Shown here: positions 8,032-25,294 of the stretch, piece after piece
Layout of the letters: every line of letters begins with the position of its first letter
Position numbering within the stretch: position 1 is the first letter of the stretch
Source: Halostagnicola sp. A-GB9-2
GTDB lineage: Archaea; Halobacteriota; Halobacteria; Halobacteriales; Natrialbaceae
NCBI RefSeq assembly: GCF_030068615.1
Contig: NZ_JASJOC010000001.1
Span: forward strand, 62,001-126,000
Direction of reading: 5' to 3'
Length of the DNA: 64,000 nt
Notes under the pieces: model-generated
Told to the model about the DNA's origin: nothing
Databases searched by the model: none
What the model saw: the letters and a program-made list of their open reading frames with translations, nothing else
Program-made: the position numbers and the translations under genes

Positions 8032-8491
8032 TGGTCATTTTCGTCGGTTGGCCTATTGATGTTGCGCTCTCGCCCCGTCCTGTTTCGACCGGTGCGCTCA
8101 CAGGACAGAGTCCGAACAAAGACGATACTGCGGAGAGACGACAGGAACATGTACTATCGGTAACTTCGATGCGTTTTAAGCCAGTGACTTCGTTCTGCCG
8201 AAACGTGTACCCGATCGTAACAGCAAACCTCCCCTCCATCCTCTCGAGTGCGATTGCGTCGGTTAGCCGCGGGGATCGGTCTGCCAGCCGAATTCCGCGG
8301 ATTCGTTCGACAATGCGCTTCGGCGATTCCCGTTCTCACACCTGTAGCCCCTCCCTACCGCCCGAGCGGTCGGATGCATCAATTGCATCCGACCGGGTAG
8401 GCTGGTTCAACCGGATTGACGATACAGTTATAGCCAAACAAAGTACGCAATATTGTTATATATCGAACTCGAACAGGAGTAATAGAACACA
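8032..8491. other. 460-base non-coding region between divergent operons
   Basis: No convincing gene. Towards the left it must hold the rnp4 promoter on the minus strand. On the right a clear TATA box (TTATATAT, 8456-8463) lies 29 bases before the ATG of the binding-protein gene at 8492. Between them is the palindrome described separately at 8355-8400. A TTTTAAG tract at 8173 could be another promoter element. Confidence 0.6.
8355..8400. repeat. Long perfect inverted repeat upstream of SBP/PAP2 cassette
   Basis: CGGTCGGATGCA and TGCATCCGACCG form a perfect 12-bp stem around TCAAT (8367-8395). An outer pair, CCTACC on the left and GGTAGG on the right, can extend it across a bulge of seven bases. 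It lies about 60 bases upstream of the TATA box of the gene at 8492, so it could be an operator for a dimeric regulator or, if transcribed leftward or rightward, a structured RNA. No second copy was found before the paralogous cassette at 11391. Confidence 0.65.
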
Positions 8492-10417
8492 ATGACCGGA
8501 AGTTCGGATGGTCCCCCCGAACGGATCAGTCGTCGGTCGGTACTAGCCACAGGAACTGCCGGACTCGTCGCGGCGACAGCTGGCTGCGTTAACCAGGTCC
8601 AGAGCATGGTCAGCAGTAGCGGCGGTACCACTGACGATACCTCCCTTCGGATCATCACCGTCCCTGCCGATAATGATCGCCAAGCCGTCCAGATTGCACG
8701 AGAGCTCGAGGGAAACCTCGAGGCGCTCGACTTCAACGTTTCACTCGACCTCCGCACTAACACCGAATTTCAGCGATCGGTCATGCTCGAACACGATTTC
8801 GACATGTACGTCGGTTCCCTCCCAACAGAGCCGGATCCCGATTTCCTGTACGAACTGCTTCACTCATCGTACAAGAGCGAAACCGGGAAACAGAATCCGT
8901 TCCGATTCGAGGACATTACGACCATCGACGGAATGTTGAGAGAACAACGCGAGACGGAGGACGGCAGGGACGAGGTAGTCACCGACCTGCTCATCCAGAT
9001 CGCACGGGAGATGCCGTTCATTCCGATCTGTCTGCCAGAGGGACACCGAGCCGTACAACCCGAGATGGCGGATCTCTGGGAACGATTCCATCCGTACACG
9101 CGGTTAGGCTATTTCGGTAACGATGAAACACCGGCGGAACTGACATCGCTGATCATGGATTCGCGTCCGACACGGAACGTCAATCCGTTTTCGACGGAAC
9201 ATCGAAATCACGGAACCTACATCGATCTCCTGTATGATTCACTGGCGATCGATGACGCACTCGTCTACGGCGACGACGAACACATTACCGAGAGCTTTGA
9301 AGGAAGCGATCTCATTCCGTGGCTCGCAGAATCGATAGAATGGGGCGAATCCGAACTGACAATCCGAATCCGCGAGGACTGTACGTTCCACGACGGTGAA
9401 CCCCTCACCGCCGAAGACGTCGCGTTCACCTACGACTTTCTCGCAGACACCACGGGAGGACTAGGCGATTCACCGCTTCCGGCGACGAACTACCGTCGCC
9501 ACGCCTCTACCGTCGAATCGGTCACTGTCGTTGAGGACATCGACGATGAGACCGAATCAGGAGACGAGGAGAACCTCGAAGTGACACTATCGTTCAGTAC
9601 GAACCGAGCGGTAGCGGAGCAGGCACTTCTCATCCCCATTCTTCCGAAACACGTTTGGGGAACCGAAGAAGGTGCGCTTGCGGAGTTAGACGAAGATGAG
9701 ATTCCCGTACAACAGGGACGGTGGAGTCTGCTCGGTTCAGACGAAGAGGATCTCATCGTCGGCAGTGGTCCGTTCCAATTCGAGGAAAAGGCCGAACAGG
9801 ATAGTCTAACCCTCTCGCGGTTCGACGACCACTTCACTCGAGCTGACGACATCGGTTTGCCCGAAGTAACCGTCGAAGCGCTCGAGTTCCTCAACGATAC
9901 GAGTAGTGCGTCAGCGCTCCAGCAGGTCGAAGGCGGCGTCGCCGACGTCACGACCTCGCGGATCGAACCGCACGTCGTCGAAGATGTCTACGACGGCGAA
10001 AGCGATGAAACAGAGATACTCGTCGAGACGGATCCGTGGTCGTTCTATCACGTCGGGTTCAACACCGATAGCGGACTCTGCCAGAGCCCGAGCTTCCGGA
10101 ACGCCGTCGGACGGGTGATCGACAGGCAGTACGTTGCAGAAGAAATCTTCTCCGGATACGCGGAACCGATCTGGACGCCGGTCGCAAACGAGGAGTGGCT
10201 CCCGGAGGAGGACGAGCTCAGAGACGAGGCGATTTCGTGGATGAACGAGCGTAACATCGAACTCACGGACAAAGAGTGGGACGAACATCAGCCGTTCGCG
10301 CCGTTCTGTGAATTAGACGATAATCGCCTCGGCCAGGTCGATATCGAAGAGGCACAGCGGGCGTTCGAGAACGCCGGATTCCAATATAACGAAGACGGTC
10401 AAATCGTAGATTACTGA
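8492..10417 (+). CDS. Tat lipoprotein, family 5 solute-binding protein with permuted domain order
   Basis: 641 residues. A twin-Arg signal (RISRRSVLATG, Arg14-Arg15) and lipobox TAGC (Cys32) predict Tat export and lipid anchoring. Residues about 50-210 (LRIITVPADNDRQ, DPDFLYELLHSS, REMPFIPICLPEG) match the C-terminal lobe of DppA/OppA proteins, whereas what normally is the N terminus (NPFSTE, TIRIREDCTFHDGEPLTAED) begins near residue 225 and the protein ends at the VDIEEAQRAFENAGF segment that usually sits in the middle. The order is that of a circular permutation. Its stop overlaps the start of the PAP2 gene (TGATG). No permease or ATPase is nearby, so transport is doubtful. The peptide or lipid ligand is unknown. 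Confidence 0.88.
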   Translation: MTGSSDGPPERISRRSVLATGTAGLVAATAGCVNQVQSMVSSSGGTTDDTSLRIITVPADNDRQAVQIARELEGNLEALDFNVSLDLRTNTEFQRSVMLEHDFDMYVGSLPTEPDPDFLYELLHSSYKSETGKQNPFRFEDITTIDGMLREQRETEDGRDEVVTDLLIQIAREMPFIPICLPEGHRAVQPEMADLWERFHPYTRLGYFGNDETPAELTSLIMDSRPTRNVNPFSTEHRNHGTYIDLLYDSLAIDDALVYGDDEHITESFEGSDLIPWLAESIEWGESELTIRIREDCTFHDGEPLTAEDVAFTYDFLADTTGGLGDSPLPATNYRRHASTVESVTVVEDIDDETESGDEENLEVTLSFSTNRAVAEQALLIPILPKHVWGTEEGALAELDEDEIPVQQGRWSLLGSDEEDLIVGSGPFQFEEKAEQDSLTLSRFDDHFTRADDIGLPEVTVEALEFLNDTSSASALQQVEGGVADVTTSRIEPHVVEDVYDGESDETEILVETDPWSFYHVGFNTDSGLCQSPSFRNAVGRVIDRQYVAEEIFSGYAEPIWTPVANEEWLPEEDELRDEAISWMNERNIELTDKEWDEHQPFAPFCELDDNRLGQVDIEEAQRAFENAGFQYNEDGQIVDY

Positions 10418-11292
10418 TGTTACAGGAGGTTCTGACTGAGGTCGCTATCGTCGTCGGGGTTATGCTCGCGATTTCGATTCCGTTGTTCATCGGAGGGGAT
10501 CGTATTCGTGAGACAGGGTCCGAGTGGCGAGTACGGATTCGAACCTCTGTTCCGATTATCGCGATTCTACTGATTGTTCTATTGGTAAACCAACAGTACC
10601 GGCGCGAAATAGGGGATCTGTCCACTGAATACGGATGGTGGATGACTCGGACGTTCTACGAGATCGAGGGCGAACTCATCATCTGGTTCCAGTCCTACGA
10701 TTACACGATATTAATTCGATTTTTTTCGTTTATTTACATCTATGCGTACGTCTTCTTGCTGATTTTCCCCGTCCTCGCGTATTTCGCGCTCTCGGATACT
10801 CGCCCGTTTCGACAGCTTCTCACGGCCTATACGCTCAATTACGGGATCGGCCTGATCGTATACGTTCTCGTGATGGCGTTCGGTCCGAGAAACATCATGC
10901 CGGAGATGTTCGAAACCACACTTTATGACTTTCAGCCACGATACCAACACCTGACTCGAGAGGTAAACGAGTTCAGAAACGTCTTTCCGTCGTTACACAC
11001 CTCTCTGGCGATGACCGTCGGGATATTCGCAGTGCGGACAAGAGACGAGTATCCGAAGTGGACTCCGGTTGGTATCTTTCTCGGAATCAGCGTCGCCATC
11101 TCGACGATGTACCTGGGAATTCACTGGGCAATCGACGTCGTCGCAGGTATGATTCTGGCAGTCGTTTCAGTCGCCATCTCTGTTCTCGTAGTCAACCGCT
11201 GGGGGGTGTGGAAACGCAGCTCCGAGCGTCTGCCAACGCTCGCGGAGATCCGGGGCTGGATAGCCTCGGCCTGGCGTTCGATTCGCGAGTGA
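10417..11292 (+). CDS. PAP2-superfamily (AUR1/IPC synthase-like) membrane protein
   Basis: 291 residues with about six transmembrane helices. The phosphatase signature is split as in PAP2_3 proteins: FPSLHTSLAMTVG (PSLH, residues 191-194) and STMYLGIHWAIDVVAG (catalytic His236, Asp240). This family removes or transfers phosphate head groups of lipids such as polyprenyl or phosphatidyl phosphates at the membrane. It starts on the last base of the preceding stop (TGATG), so translation is coupled to the permuted binding protein. The same pair recurs at 11391-14047. The substrate cannot be deduced; a role in envelope lipid or glycan-carrier metabolism is inference. Confidence 0.88.
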   Translation: MLQEVLTEVAIVVGVMLAISIPLFIGGDRIRETGSEWRVRIRTSVPIIAILLIVLLVNQQYRREIGDLSTEYGWWMTRTFYEIEGELIIWFQSYDYTILIRFFSFIYIYAYVFLLIFPVLAYFALSDTRPFRQLLTAYTLNYGIGLIVYVLVMAFGPRNIMPEMFETTLYDFQPRYQHLTREVNEFRNVFPSLHTSLAMTVGIFAVRTRDEYPKWTPVGIFLGISVAISTMYLGIHWAIDVVAGMILAVVSVAISVLVVNRWGVWKRSSERLPTLAEIRGWIASAWRSIRE

Positions 11293-11390
11293 GCCGGGCG
11301 GTCTGACCAGTGGATCGTCGCGCCAGTTTCTCGCGAGTCCGTGGCGCAATACTGTTATACCGTGAGCGGCCAAGATTTCTGAAGGAACTA

Positions 11391-13211
11391 ATGAACGACA
11401 CTCCGGTCGGGCAAGTAAGTCGTCGCTCGCTCCTCGCGACGGGTGCGGCCGGCGCGTCTCTCTCGACAGCTGGCTGTGTTCGACAGCTCCGCAGTATCGT
11501 CAATAGGGACAGGCTAGAGCAACTCTCGTTGACGATAACGACGCTTCCCGCGGACGGTGACCGAGAAGGGATCCAACTGGCTCGACATCTCCGTGCAAAC
11601 CTGGAAGCGGCCGGTGTCGACGTCTCCCTCGAGATGCGCTCGCAGGAAGAATTCTTGCGGGCGATTCTGATCAATCACGACTTCGACTGTTATGTCGGAC
11701 GCCATCCCGGCTCGATGGATCCGGACTTTCTGTACGAAGCCCTCCACTCGTTGTACGCCGAGGAATCCGGCTGGCAGAACCCGTTCGGGTTCACGAATCT
11801 CGCGTTCGACGAATTACTCGAGGCCCAGCGCCGGGCAAACGACGACGGCCGACAGGACGCCGTAACCAGTGTTCTCGAGACGCTGGCGGTCGAGGTTCCG
11901 TTCGTCCCGGTCTGTGTCCCCGAAGAGTACCGACTCGTCAGGACGGACCGGTTCGACGGCTGGGGCGAGTACCACCCGGCGACCCGGCTCGGTCCGCTCG
12001 GCCTCGAGCCAACGACGGAGACGGACCAGTTACGGACGGTCGTCATCGACGCGCGACCGTCCCAGAATCTGAATCCGCTCGCCGCGGAGTATCGAAGCGG
12101 AGATACGTTCGTGGATCTGTTGTACGATTCTCTGGCGACCGAAAACTGGATCCAGAACGGAACCGAAACCGGTCAGAATGACACCGACGAGAACGAAGAC
12201 GACGATGACGCCACAACGACGACCGAACTGCTTCCGTGGCTGGCAGAATCCTGGGAGTGGAACGACGACACGCTCGAGGTGACGATCCGCGAGGACTGTA
12301 CCTTCCATGACGGGGAGCCCCTCACCGCCGAGGACGTCGAGTTTACGTATAACTTCCTCGCGGACACGTCGATGGGCGAAAGCGACGTACAATCCCCCGC
12401 GCCGATCTATCGCGGTCTCGTCTCCGTTGTCGACGAAATCAACGTCGAACCGGAGTCCGATCACCAACTGTCCTTTACGGTGGAGACGGGAGAAGCCGTA
12501 GCCGAATGGGCGCTAACCGTTCCGATTTTACCGAAACACGTCTGGGAAGAGCGCTCGAGTAGCGCGGATATTCCGGGCTATCGGGTCGCCGAGGGAACGA
12601 CCGATGCGCTCGTTACGGACAACATCCCTGCCGTCGGGAGTGGTCCGTTCGAGTTCGACGACCGAGCCGAGCGCGAGCACCTCACACTCGAGCGGTTCGA
12701 CGACCATTTCACCCGACGCGATTCAGTCGATCTTCCCGAAGCGAGTGTCGAGGAGTTGTACGCCGGAATCGACCCCCGAAGCACCTCGGCGATTTCGCTC
12801 GTCGAAAGCAACGACGCCGATATGACGCTCTCGACGCTCGAGACCTACGCAATCGAGGACGTGACCGAAGGGGATGGTGTCGAGCTGCGCGCCGACCGGT
12901 CGTGGTCGTTCTACCATCTCGGATTCAACACCCGAACCACGCCGTTTAGCAACCCCCGCTTTCGCCAGCTCTGTGCGCGACTGATCGACAGGGAGCGAGT
13001 CGTCGAAGAGATTTTCGAGGGGTACGCGCGGCCGGTCGAAGCACCGGTGACCGACGAGTGGATGTCCGAGAGTCTCGAGTGGGACGGAAGCGCACTCGAG
13101 ACCCCGTTTCTCGGCTCCGACGGGGAAGTCGATGTGGGTGCGGCTAGGCAGGCGTTCGCTGAAAACGGGTTTAGTCACAACGGAGACGGAGAACTGCTGG
13201 TGAGACGCTGA
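11391..13211 (+). CDS. Tat lipoprotein, permuted family 5 solute-binding protein (paralogue)
   Basis: 606 residues, paralogue of the gene at 8492. Twin Arg at 11-12 (VSRRSLLATG) and lipobox Cys29 (STAGC). As in its sister, the C-terminal-lobe segment comes first (LSLTITTLPADGDRE, DPDFLYEALHSLY, VEVPFVPVCVPEE), then the normal N-terminal part (LNPLAAEY, TIREDCTFHDGEPLTAED), and it ends with DVGAARQAFAENGF. An acidic Asp/Glu-Thr insert (about residues 255-280) is unique to this copy. ATG 11391 was chosen over an upstream in-frame start because it puts the Tat motif at the N terminus; TATA box GTTATACC lies at 11352-11359 and a GAAGGA Shine-Dalgarno just before the ATG. Confidence 0.88.
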   Translation: MNDTPVGQVSRRSLLATGAAGASLSTAGCVRQLRSIVNRDRLEQLSLTITTLPADGDREGIQLARHLRANLEAAGVDVSLEMRSQEEFLRAILINHDFDCYVGRHPGSMDPDFLYEALHSLYAEESGWQNPFGFTNLAFDELLEAQRRANDDGRQDAVTSVLETLAVEVPFVPVCVPEEYRLVRTDRFDGWGEYHPATRLGPLGLEPTTETDQLRTVVIDARPSQNLNPLAAEYRSGDTFVDLLYDSLATENWIQNGTETGQNDTDENEDDDDATTTTELLPWLAESWEWNDDTLEVTIREDCTFHDGEPLTAEDVEFTYNFLADTSMGESDVQSPAPIYRGLVSVVDEINVEPESDHQLSFTVETGEAVAEWALTVPILPKHVWEERSSSADIPGYRVAEGTTDALVTDNIPAVGSGPFEFDDRAEREHLTLERFDDHFTRRDSVDLPEASVEELYAGIDPRSTSAISLVESNDADMTLSTLETYAIEDVTEGDGVELRADRSWSFYHLGFNTRTTPFSNPRFRQLCARLIDRERVVEEIFEGYARPVEAPVTDEWMSESLEWDGSALETPFLGSDGEVDVGAARQAFAENGFSHNGDGELLVRR

Positions 13212-14047
13212 TGTTAACGCAAGTCCTCGTGCAACTGGTCGTGGTCGTGACACTGCTGAGTCTCCTCTCTATTGCGGTCTTCGTCGGACGAAATCGTCTC
13301 GGCGAAACCCGAGTCGAGTGGCGCTCTCGAGTCCGAGCAATGACACCGGTTACGGTCGTCCTTGCCATCGTTTTGGGATTCAACAGCGTTGCCAGACAGG
13401 TCGTTCCGGAGCTCTCGTGGATGATCGACTGGAATCTAACAACGCCGATTTACGAACTCGAGGGCCAGTTCATCCTCTGGATGCAGGACCAGGCGACGCC
13501 GGAGATCACCGCTTACTTCTCGTTCATCTACATCTACGGCTACGTCTTTTTGCTGGTGTTTCCTGTTATCGCGTACTTCGCACTCTCAGATACCAGATCG
13601 CTCCGCGAACTCCTCTCGGCGTACACGTTGAACTACACGCTCGGACTCGTCCTCTACACCTTCATCATCGCGTACGGGCCGCGAAACGTGATGCCGGAAC
13701 TCGTCGACGCGTTGCTATACGATACGTACCCGCGGTACCAACACCTCACTCGAGAGGTCAACCGAAACACGAACGTCTTCCCGTCGCTCCACACGTCCCT
13801 CGCCGCGACGGTCATGTTCATGGCCTATCGAACGCGCGACGCCTATCCGAAGTGGTTCGTGCTCGCACTCTTCCTTGGCATCAGCGTGGCGATTTCGACG
13901 ATGTACCTGGGAATTCACTGGGTAATCGACGTTATCGCAGGGATCGGCCTTGCGTATATCAGCGTCGTGCTCTCGAAACACCTCGTCGGCAGGTGGTCGC
14001 TCTCGGATTCGATCGGCGGCCATCTCTCGAGAATACGGAAGCGATAA
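13211..14047 (+). CDS. PAP2-superfamily membrane protein (paralogue)
   Basis: 278 residues, close paralogue of 10417-11292 and equal in the position of every signature: FPSLHTSLAATVM (PSLH 191-194), STMYLGIHWVIDVIAG (His236, Asp240), and the shared segments YFSFIYIYGYVFLLVFPVIAYF, GPRNVMPEL and PRYQHLTREVN. About six transmembrane helices; the C-terminal tail is shorter than in the sister. It is coupled to the preceding lipoprotein by the same TGATG overlap, so the two-gene cassette was duplicated as a unit. Confidence 0.88.
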   Translation: MLTQVLVQLVVVVTLLSLLSIAVFVGRNRLGETRVEWRSRVRAMTPVTVVLAIVLGFNSVARQVVPELSWMIDWNLTTPIYELEGQFILWMQDQATPEITAYFSFIYIYGYVFLLVFPVIAYFALSDTRSLRELLSAYTLNYTLGLVLYTFIIAYGPRNVMPELVDALLYDTYPRYQHLTREVNRNTNVFPSLHTSLAATVMFMAYRTRDAYPKWFVLALFLGISVAISTMYLGIHWVIDVIAGIGLAYISVVLSKHLVGRWSLSDSIGGHLSRIRKR

Positions 14048-24124: not shown

Positions 24125-25294
24125 TCAGGTGTCGCGGAGAGGTTCGCCGGTCTGTTCTTCGGCCGACGTTCGCTGACCTGCCGGAAACCAGGCGAGTTCG
24201 TGTTCCGCCGTGACGCGGACGGCGACGCGCTCGTCGAGGTCGATGTGATCGGAGTGGTTGTGCATGCACTCGATGGTCTCGCCCGAATCGAGTTCGATCC
24301 GGTAGAGGACCGTCGGACCGAGATAGCGGCGGTAAACGACGGTTCCATTTGCCTCCTGCTCGGTCGCAGGGTAAGCGGTTACGTCGTCGGGTCGGACGAG
24401 CAAATCGATCCCCGTTCCGTCGTACTGGGTGGCGAGGCCGTGAACGTTGTCCCGAAGCACTCGCCCGACGGCCGTGTCGACGTGGTCGCCGTGGACTTCT
24501 CCGGAGAGAAAGCTCGCGTGGCCCAGAAAGCCGGCAACGAAACGCGACTCGGGTTGCTGGAAGATCTGTTCCGGCGTGTCGACCTGTTCGATATCGCCGT
24601 CGTTCATCACTGCCACCCGATCGGAAATCGAGAGCGCCTCCTCCTGATCGTGGGTGACCGAAACAGCCGTGACGCCAGCTTCCTTGATGATCTGGCGTAC
24701 CTCCTCACGCATCTCCACACGCAGGTCGACATCGAGGTTAGAGAACGGTTCGTCCAGCAACAACATTTCGGGTTCGGGTGCGAGCGAGCGTGCGAGCGCG
24801 ATCCGCTGTTGTTGACCGCCCGAAAGTTCCTCCGGCTGGTGGTCGCCGTGAGACTCGAGCCCGACGAGTTCGAGCAACGAAGCCACTCGAGCGTCGCGTT
24901 CTTCCTCGGCCCACTCTTGTAGTCCGAACGCGATGTTTTCGCGGGCCGTCATATGCGGAAAGAGTGCGAACTCCTGAAAAACGACACCGACACCGCGGTG
25001 CTCCGGCGGAACGAACTGTCCGTTCCCAGCGACTGCCTCGCCGTTCAATCGAACCGCTCCGTCGTTTGGCTTCTCGAGCCCTGCGATAAGCCTGAGCGTC
25101 GTCGTTTTTCCGCAGCCAGAGGGGCCGAGTAACGTCAAAATTTCCCCGTCTCGAACGGACAAGGAGAGATCGGTTATCACCTCTTCGCTCGCGTATTGCT
25201 TTGCGATCCCGTCCAGTTCGAGGACCGTCTCGGTCGTCGTGGGTTCTCGAGTACGTTCCTCACCCGTCGTTGTGACCAGTTGTCCGTTCGACAT
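24125..25294 (-). CDS. ABC transporter ATP-binding protein, iron/spermidine type
   Basis: 389 residues. ATPase domain with Walker A GPSGCGKTT, Q-loop FQEFALFPHMT, signature ELSGGQQQRIAL, Walker B MLLLDEPFSNLD and H-loop VTHDQEEA; a TOBE-type ligand-sensing domain fills the C-terminal 120 residues (GTVVYRRYLGPTVLYRIELDSGETI). The closest functional classes are FbpC (ferric iron) and PotA (polyamine). A DtxR-like operator overlapping its promoter points to iron. A GGGGGAG Shine-Dalgarno stands before ATG 25294. No permease or binding-protein gene is adjacent, so its partners must be encoded elsewhere. Confidence 0.92.
   Translation of the reverse strand: MSNGQLVTTTGEERTREPTTTETVLELDGIAKQYASEEVITDLSLSVRDGEILTLLGPSGCGKTTTLRLIAGLEKPNDGAVRLNGEAVAGNGQFVPPEHRGVGVVFQEFALFPHMTARENIAFGLQEWAEEERDARVASLLELVGLESHGDHQPEELSGGQQQRIALARSLAPEPEMLLLDEPFSNLDVDLRVEMREEVRQIIKEAGVTAVSVTHDQEEALSISDRVAVMNDGDIEQVDTPEQIFQQPESRFVAGFLGHASFLSGEVHGDHVDTAVGRVLRDNVHGLATQYDGTGIDLLVRPDDVTAYPATEQEANGTVVYRRYLGPTVLYRIELDSGETIECMHNHSDHIDLDERVAVRVTAEHELAWFPAGQRTSAEEQTGEPLRDT

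Follow-up and report, generated by a model that had tools for sequence, protein, structure and literature searches.

In the 64,000-nucleotide stretch of the Halostagnicola sp. A-GB9-2 genome analysed here (the window; contig NZ_JASJOC010000001.1, positions 62,001 to 126,000), two tandem cassettes in the same orientation occupy the open reading frames at positions 8492-14047, and each consists of a gene for a lipoprotein of the family-5 solute-binding proteins (SBPs) followed by a gene for a PAP2-type membrane protein. The pairing of the two genes, rather than the circular permutation that both lipoproteins carry, is the real finding, and it is practically certain. Overall, the cassette is proposed to encode a surface enzyme unit for phosphate-linked isoprenoid lipids in which the SBP would present the substrate or gate the enzyme, a reading to which a probability of about one half is given. 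About two thirds of the sampled haloarchaeal genomes have the pair, although its annotation is that of nutrient uptake.

Pairing, distribution and joint duplication

The pair, which a preliminary description of the locus had proposed to look for across archaea, recurs throughout the haloarchaea: 264 of 391 Halobacteria genomes, representing 69 of 86 genera, have homologues, and a PAP2 gene lies directly downstream of 79 of 95 SBP genes (65 named loci); in 44 of these pairs the two genes share 1 or 4 bp. A second draw of 393 genomes of the phylum included about 80 haloarchaea, and here strong SBP and strong PAP2 matches fall in the identical 50 genomes and in none elsewhere. In this sample 64 of the 73 SBPs adjoin a PAP2 gene; the remaining nine represent only about four lineages, and each lies in a genome that carries an unlinked PAP2 gene. 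In Halostagnicola sp. A-GB9-2 itself all three PAP2_3 genes above the cut-off come after a permuted SBP. Such co-occurrence, like the gene neighbourhoods described below, is a correlation. Natrinema-type genomes keep a second tandem SBP whose adjoining PAP2 gene has been lost (loci L011, L012, L021-L024, L026, L028-L032, L034 and L036), and the sampled ones have an unlinked PAP2 gene elsewhere. Relatives are also present in Haloferax and Haloarcula as well as in Natrinema, all of them groups that are amenable to gene deletion.

Distances in the SBP and PAP2 trees are correlated (r = 0.93, a value that common species descent inflates). In each tree the upstream cassettes part from the downstream ones at 17 of 17 two-cassette loci, and the split between the tandem copies has a support of 0.98 in the PAP2 tree. 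The correlated distances and the consistent separation together indicate that the cassette was duplicated as a unit, before the radiation of the Natrialbaceae.

The database label of the lipoproteins, 'ABC transporter substrate-binding protein', would fit ordinary oligopeptide-binding proteins that stand beside an unrelated phosphatase by accident. This is highly improbable given the pairing across most haloarchaeal genera, the identical presence in 50 genomes and the joint duplication. Furthermore, the position three before the DPD motif is G, A or E in the SBP family, and the same position in DppA and OppA is presumably the aspartate that binds the peptide amine.

Circular permutation of the lipoproteins

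Both lipoproteins are members of family 5, with PF00496 scores of 135.5 and 155.0 bits against a Pfam cut-off of 32.4. Positions 2-285 of PF00496 are matched by the C-terminal parts of both proteins. The isolated N-terminal fragments hit the profile in the expected place, though weakly, one at 292-364 (E 0.0034) and the other at 289-359 (E 0.0064). When a profile of 75 SBP homologues was aligned by HHalign to a reference of 15 canonical family-5 SBPs, its N-terminal lobe (N-lobe) fell on residues 356-502 of 515 (probability 98.5%, E 2e-15) and its remainder on canonical residues 36-344. Searched against solved structures, the N-lobe profile matches only the C-terminal part of family members, for example residues 363-499 of 520 in AppA (E 1.6e-7); the family profile was required here, single-sequence N-lobe searches of PDB and NCBIfam having returned nothing useful. 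A hidden Markov model (HMM) of the canonical proteins matches 94 of 94 haloarchaeal homologues in two pieces of reversed order, and each canonical control in one collinear piece. In the AlphaFold2 model of the second lipoprotein, SBP2 (predicted local distance difference test, pLDDT, 89.9; predicted template modelling score 0.87), the segment from residue 204 to residue 606 aligns structurally with the initial ~350 residues of NikZ, AppA, OppA and DppA at Z scores of 20-23, as is expected of a permuted chain. With the N-lobe assigned by profile, the model is that of a bilobed type II (cluster C) fold.

Pfam, HHalign, the canonical HMM and the structural model therefore agree with the preliminary description that both paralogues are circularly permuted, with the canonical C-terminal lobe first, and this is hardly open to doubt: the model departs from the normal lobe order, and the N-terminal region matches the family-5 C-terminal lobe rather than another family. 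A natural precedent is TpMglB-2 of Treponema pallidum, which like the cassette SBPs is a circularly permuted, membrane-tethered SBP, but has a type I (cluster B) sugar-binding fold and is thought to serve an ABC transporter (PMC4990184). No published permuted family-5 SBP or SBP-PAP2 pair was found, which is weak evidence given the partial coverage of the literature.

Permuted proteins in transporter operons

The permutation is by no means confined to SBPs with a PAP2 partner. The swapped lobe order also occurs in six alphaproteobacterial homologues and one from Thermomicrobiales, and the permuted-SBP operons of Aliiroseovarius and Nitratireductor continue with the permeases and ATPase of an ATP-binding cassette (ABC) transporter. 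In the genome of Halostagnicola sp. A-GB9-2, locus L111 (C6:45000-62000) encodes a permuted SBP, its lobe order tested directly, together with two permeases and two ATPases. The same order seems to hold in the ABC-operon SBPs of Halalkalicoccus, Natrononativus and Halobaculum, which align collinearly with a query that is itself permuted. ABC operons with a permuted SBP are common, and permutation was rejected as the mark of a lipid-linked group; since the subtype often stands beside complete Opp-type transporters, its permutation is uninformative on lipids. It is a permuted family-5 subtype common to alphaproteobacteria and haloarchaea that is hidden by standard annotation.

Several loci of this kind deserve mention in their own right. 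Permuted family-5 SBPs lie in complete Opp-type ABC operons at L111, L072, L162, L163, L166 and L167, where they are annotated as ordinary. A fifth permuted family-5 SBP of the Halostagnicola genome (L120/L176, C1:690000-709000; 654 aa) has the reversed pieces and sits on a long branch. The bacterial permuted-SBP ABC operon at L072 is followed by a gene for gamma-glutamyltranspeptidase (L072:12083-12817), a hint of gamma-glutamyl or glutathione-type substrates for that branch.

The cassette SBPs share with the SBPs of family-5 ABC importers (AppA, DppA, OppA, NikA and AccA) homology in both lobes, the bilobed fold and a lipoprotein signal, but differ in being permuted and in having a PAP2 partner in place of an ABC permease and ATPase. 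Their nearest relatives in the tree are the permuted ABC-operon SBPs (Halalkalicoccus L162, Nitratireductor L163 and Halostagnicola L111), which have the same breakpoint and order but keep two permeases and one or more ATPases downstream, whereas the PAP2-linked clade is without these. The PAP2-linked proteins group as one clade in a tree built from 41 permuted SBPs, with a support of 99 in the Shimodaira-Hasegawa-like approximate likelihood ratio test; with an alphaproteobacterial outgroup, a rooting that is an assumption, and with three ABC-side rows on long branches, this clade nests inside the ABC-linked SBPs. From this nesting, the recruitment of the SBP to PAP2 looks like one later event.

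The nearest permuted relatives whose neighbours are known work with ABC importers, which also favours a scavenging pair. In such a pair the PAP2 enzyme would dephosphorylate a compound that is extracellular or bound to the membrane, and the SBP would pass the product to an Opp-type permease in trans. Other Opp-type systems exist in the same genome, and sugar phosphodiesters are ligands of related SBPs, AccA among them. Such a role is nevertheless unlikely. A membrane-embedded enzyme resembling AUR1 (see below) would be odd for a soluble substrate, and it would be unusual for an SBP to be tied so strictly to a single enzyme if its permease were encoded in trans every time. ABC genes were absent beside the cassettes at all loci examined, which sets the cassettes apart from the operons of ABC-importer SBPs. 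In the window the earlier statement that no permease or ATPase lies nearby holds within about 10 kb; the closest ABC ATPase gene seen is of the TOBE type and stands separately at 24125-25294.

The PAP2 enzyme

As the preliminary description had stated, the partner is a PAP2_3-type protein with PSLH and HxxxD motifs. Both copies score above the PF14378 cut-off of 27 bits (Table 1), and GPRN, PSLH and TxxLxxHWxxD are invariant in 68 sequences, with the catalytic H194, H236 and D240 kept. The closest folds to the model of the first copy, PAP2-1 (pLDDT 90.7), are those of AUR1, the inositol-phosphorylceramide synthase (Z 18.3 for 9vj4 and 18.0 for 9ivc), ahead of LpxE (15.6), SMSr (14.0) and PgpB (12.6). 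AUR1, LpxE and PgpB share the PAP2_3 family and the His-His-Asp site with the cassette enzyme, which differs from AUR1 in that it is archaeal, has an identity of about 16%, implies neither ceramide nor inositol and is encoded with a solute-binding lipoprotein. The name 'PAP2 phosphatase' used earlier was therefore right as to the PAP2 enzyme and too narrow as to the activity, since the nearest solved fold is that of a phosphodiester transferase; both a phosphatase and a head-group transferase are possible. The loop charges, read by the positive-inside rule, place the active site probably outside the membrane, on the side of the exported lipoprotein. A review of archaeal lipids names an archaetidylglycerol phosphatase activity and calls the phosphatase for inositol lipids unidentified; PAP2 is absent from its text (PMC9385802).

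Proposed role of the cassette

From the computed permutation, pairing, joint duplication, co-occurrence, catalytic residues and fold, we infer an outside-facing active site, a physical complex, a lipid substrate and a division of roles between the partners. It is proposed that the SBP is exported by the twin-arginine translocation (Tat) pathway and lipid-anchored on the external side of the membrane; its neighbour there would be a PAP2 enzyme of the AUR1/LpxE type, with a His-His-Asp site that opens to that same side. Having left ABC transport, the SBP would serve as a dedicated substrate-presenting or gating subunit of this enzyme, which would transfer or remove the phosphate-linked head group of an isoprenoid lipid. 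Candidate lipids are an archaetidyl lipid or a polyprenyl or dolichyl phosphate carrier, and the process could be the assembly of surface glycolipids or glycans. More tentatively, the SBP may have been recruited once in haloarchaeal ancestry and become indispensable, outside the cytoplasm, as a subunit of an AUR1-like enzyme; the two would then make or recycle phosphate-linked isoprenoid glycolipids at the cell surface, independently of ABC transport. The lipid or polyprenyl-phosphate role that had been suggested at the outset in place of peptide import is thus supported indirectly, by the AUR1-like fold, the glycan-gene neighbourhoods and the lack of ABC genes.

A regulatory pair, in which the SBP senses a ligand or stabilises the enzyme and so switches it on or off without delivering substrate, is rather unlikely; the computed results do not separate gating from substrate delivery. 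AUR1 has been solved together with a partner, Kei1, and the N-lobe profile matches the solved chain (2grv) of mycobacterial LpqW, an SBP-5-like lipoprotein that acts in envelope lipid and glycan synthesis and not in import (PMC3229680), where it regulates the synthesis of phosphatidylinositol mannosides and lipomannan (PMC3229680, PMC12421883). Both LpqW and the AUR1 partner Kei1 are also precedents for the proposed presenting or gating subunit. The fold and the missing ABC partner gene of the cassette SBPs would fit an LpqW-like regulator. However, the lobe order of LpqW is canonical and the match covers residues 407-473 of 621. To our knowledge, no PAP2 partner gene is known for LpqW.

Gene neighbourhoods are in part consistent with the proposed surface enzyme unit. 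Outside Halobacteria, PAP2 relatives without an SBP adjoin a GT-B glycosyltransferase and an LPG_synthase_TM gene in several genomes; at five loci examined in other archaeal classes, no permuted SBP was found beside the PAP2 relatives. At 11 haloarchaeal loci of several families (five on plasmids and six on chromosomes) the cassette lies near a PMT_2-like polytopic protein, an arylsulfotransferase or both, with glmM (phosphoglucosamine mutase) or glmS nearby at some of them. PMT_2 is the dolichyl-phosphate-mannose mannosyltransferase family, and the PMT_2-like protein is above the cut-off only in the Haloarcula copy. In the family of the window cassettes these neighbours are absent at the loci examined. 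Several haloarchaeal families have the arylsulfotransferase and PMT_2-like genes as direct neighbours in the vicinity of the cassette, or of its SBP (L169, L170, L173 and L174; L037, L040, L041, L048 and L063), and this pair may be a sulfated surface-glycan module.

Several observations weigh against the proposal of a lipid-directed surface unit. In addition to the inflated tree correlation, the split between tandem copies is without branch support in the SBP tree. There are 21 PAP2 paralogues without an SBP, so that the enzyme can act alone, and those in haloarchaea have no informative common neighbourhood. The sequence profile favours the phosphatase PgpB (E 7e-6), the best solved match by sequence, over AUR1 (E 3e-3), in a comparison that covers a short catalytic stretch. 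The window cassettes do not lie in a glycan cluster, their neighbours being genes for an acyl-CoA dehydrogenase, MscS, DUF2797 and CbiX, and the third cassette of the genome is near a CetZ-like gene.

If the proposal is correct, the cassette provides archaeal lipid and glycan biology with two defined genes for a phosphate-transfer step outside the cytoplasm, and perhaps an unrecognised step of archaeal envelope synthesis. It would also be an example of an SBP that works as an enzyme subunit, and it would expose the hidden family-5 subtype.

Locus layout and promoter element

The open reading frames, their coordinates and the overlap of each pair are as first described (Table 1), with the exception of the SBP2 start: GTG at 11310 was rejected as an over-extension and ATG at 11391 is preferred. 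At both junctions the SBP stop overlaps the PAP2 start by 1 bp within TGATG. Both lipoproteins contain a Tat-type SRRS motif and a lipobox (ATAGC in SBP1 and STAGC in SBP2), of which the two arginines and the lipobox G-C are invariant in the 75 SBP homologues, and SBP1 terminates in an AxxxFxxAGF segment. The two lipoproteins are 48% identical and the two PAP2 proteins about 54%. A third, more distant cassette is located on another contig, where it is divergent from a gene (L175:11089-12366) that by sequence alone reads like a CetZ tubulin homologue.

Table 1. Features of the two cassettes (window positions)
Feature	Positions	Strand	Remarks
Conserved 14-bp putative promoter element GCAATATTGTTATA	8447..8460	+	CAATATTG palindrome running into TATA-like TTATA; 31 bp before SBP1 start
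SBP1 (P0001), circularly permuted family-5 solute-binding lipoprotein	8492..10417	+	641 aa
SBP1 Tat signal peptide and lipobox	8492..8587	+	SRRS...ATAGC, Cys32; from sequence
SBP1 residues 47-195, canonical C-terminal lobe, first here	8630..9076	+	Canonical HMM 367-512, independent E-value (iE) 2e-12; Pfam fragment
SBP1 residues 214-641, canonical N-terminal and middle part, last here	9131..10414	+	PF00496 2-285; canonical HMM 37-404
PAP2-1 (P0003), PAP2_3-type polytopic membrane enzyme	10417..11292	+	291 aa; PF14378 71.0 bits
PAP2-1 GPRN motif, residues 156-159	10882..10893	+	C1-like; invariant in 68 homologues
PAP2-1 PSLH motif, residues 191-194	10987..10998	+	Catalytic His194; invariant in 68 homologues
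PAP2-1 TMYLGIHWAID, residues 230-240	11104..11136	+	Catalytic His236 and Asp240; T230, H236, W237 and D240 invariant in 68 homologues
Same 14-bp element before cassette 2, GCAATACTGTTATA	11346..11359	+	31 bp before SBP2 start
SBP2 (P0002), paralogous permuted lipoprotein	11391..13211	+	606 aa; best start ATG 11391
SBP2 residues 47-191, canonical C-terminal lobe, first here	11529..11963	+	Canonical HMM 372-512, iE 4e-13; HHalign 98.5%
SBP2 residues 212-606, canonical N-terminal and middle part, last here	12024..13208	+	PF00496 2-285; structure alignment
PAP2-2 (P0004), PAP2_3-type membrane enzyme	13211..14047	+	278 aa; PF14378 69.7 bits

Each cassette is preceded by the same 14-bp element, GCAATAYTGTTATA, which at up to two mismatches has only 2 matches in the 64 kb, where 0.07 are expected. 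Genome-wide there are only two exact sites, one per window cassette, and the element was therefore rejected as the mark of a wider regulon in this genome. As the palindrome runs into the TATA box, it is probably a private promoter or operator of each cassette. Within two mismatches it is also found upstream of 52 of the 95 homologous SBP genes, all at Natrialbaceae-type loci, and it favours ATG 11391 as the start of SBP2.

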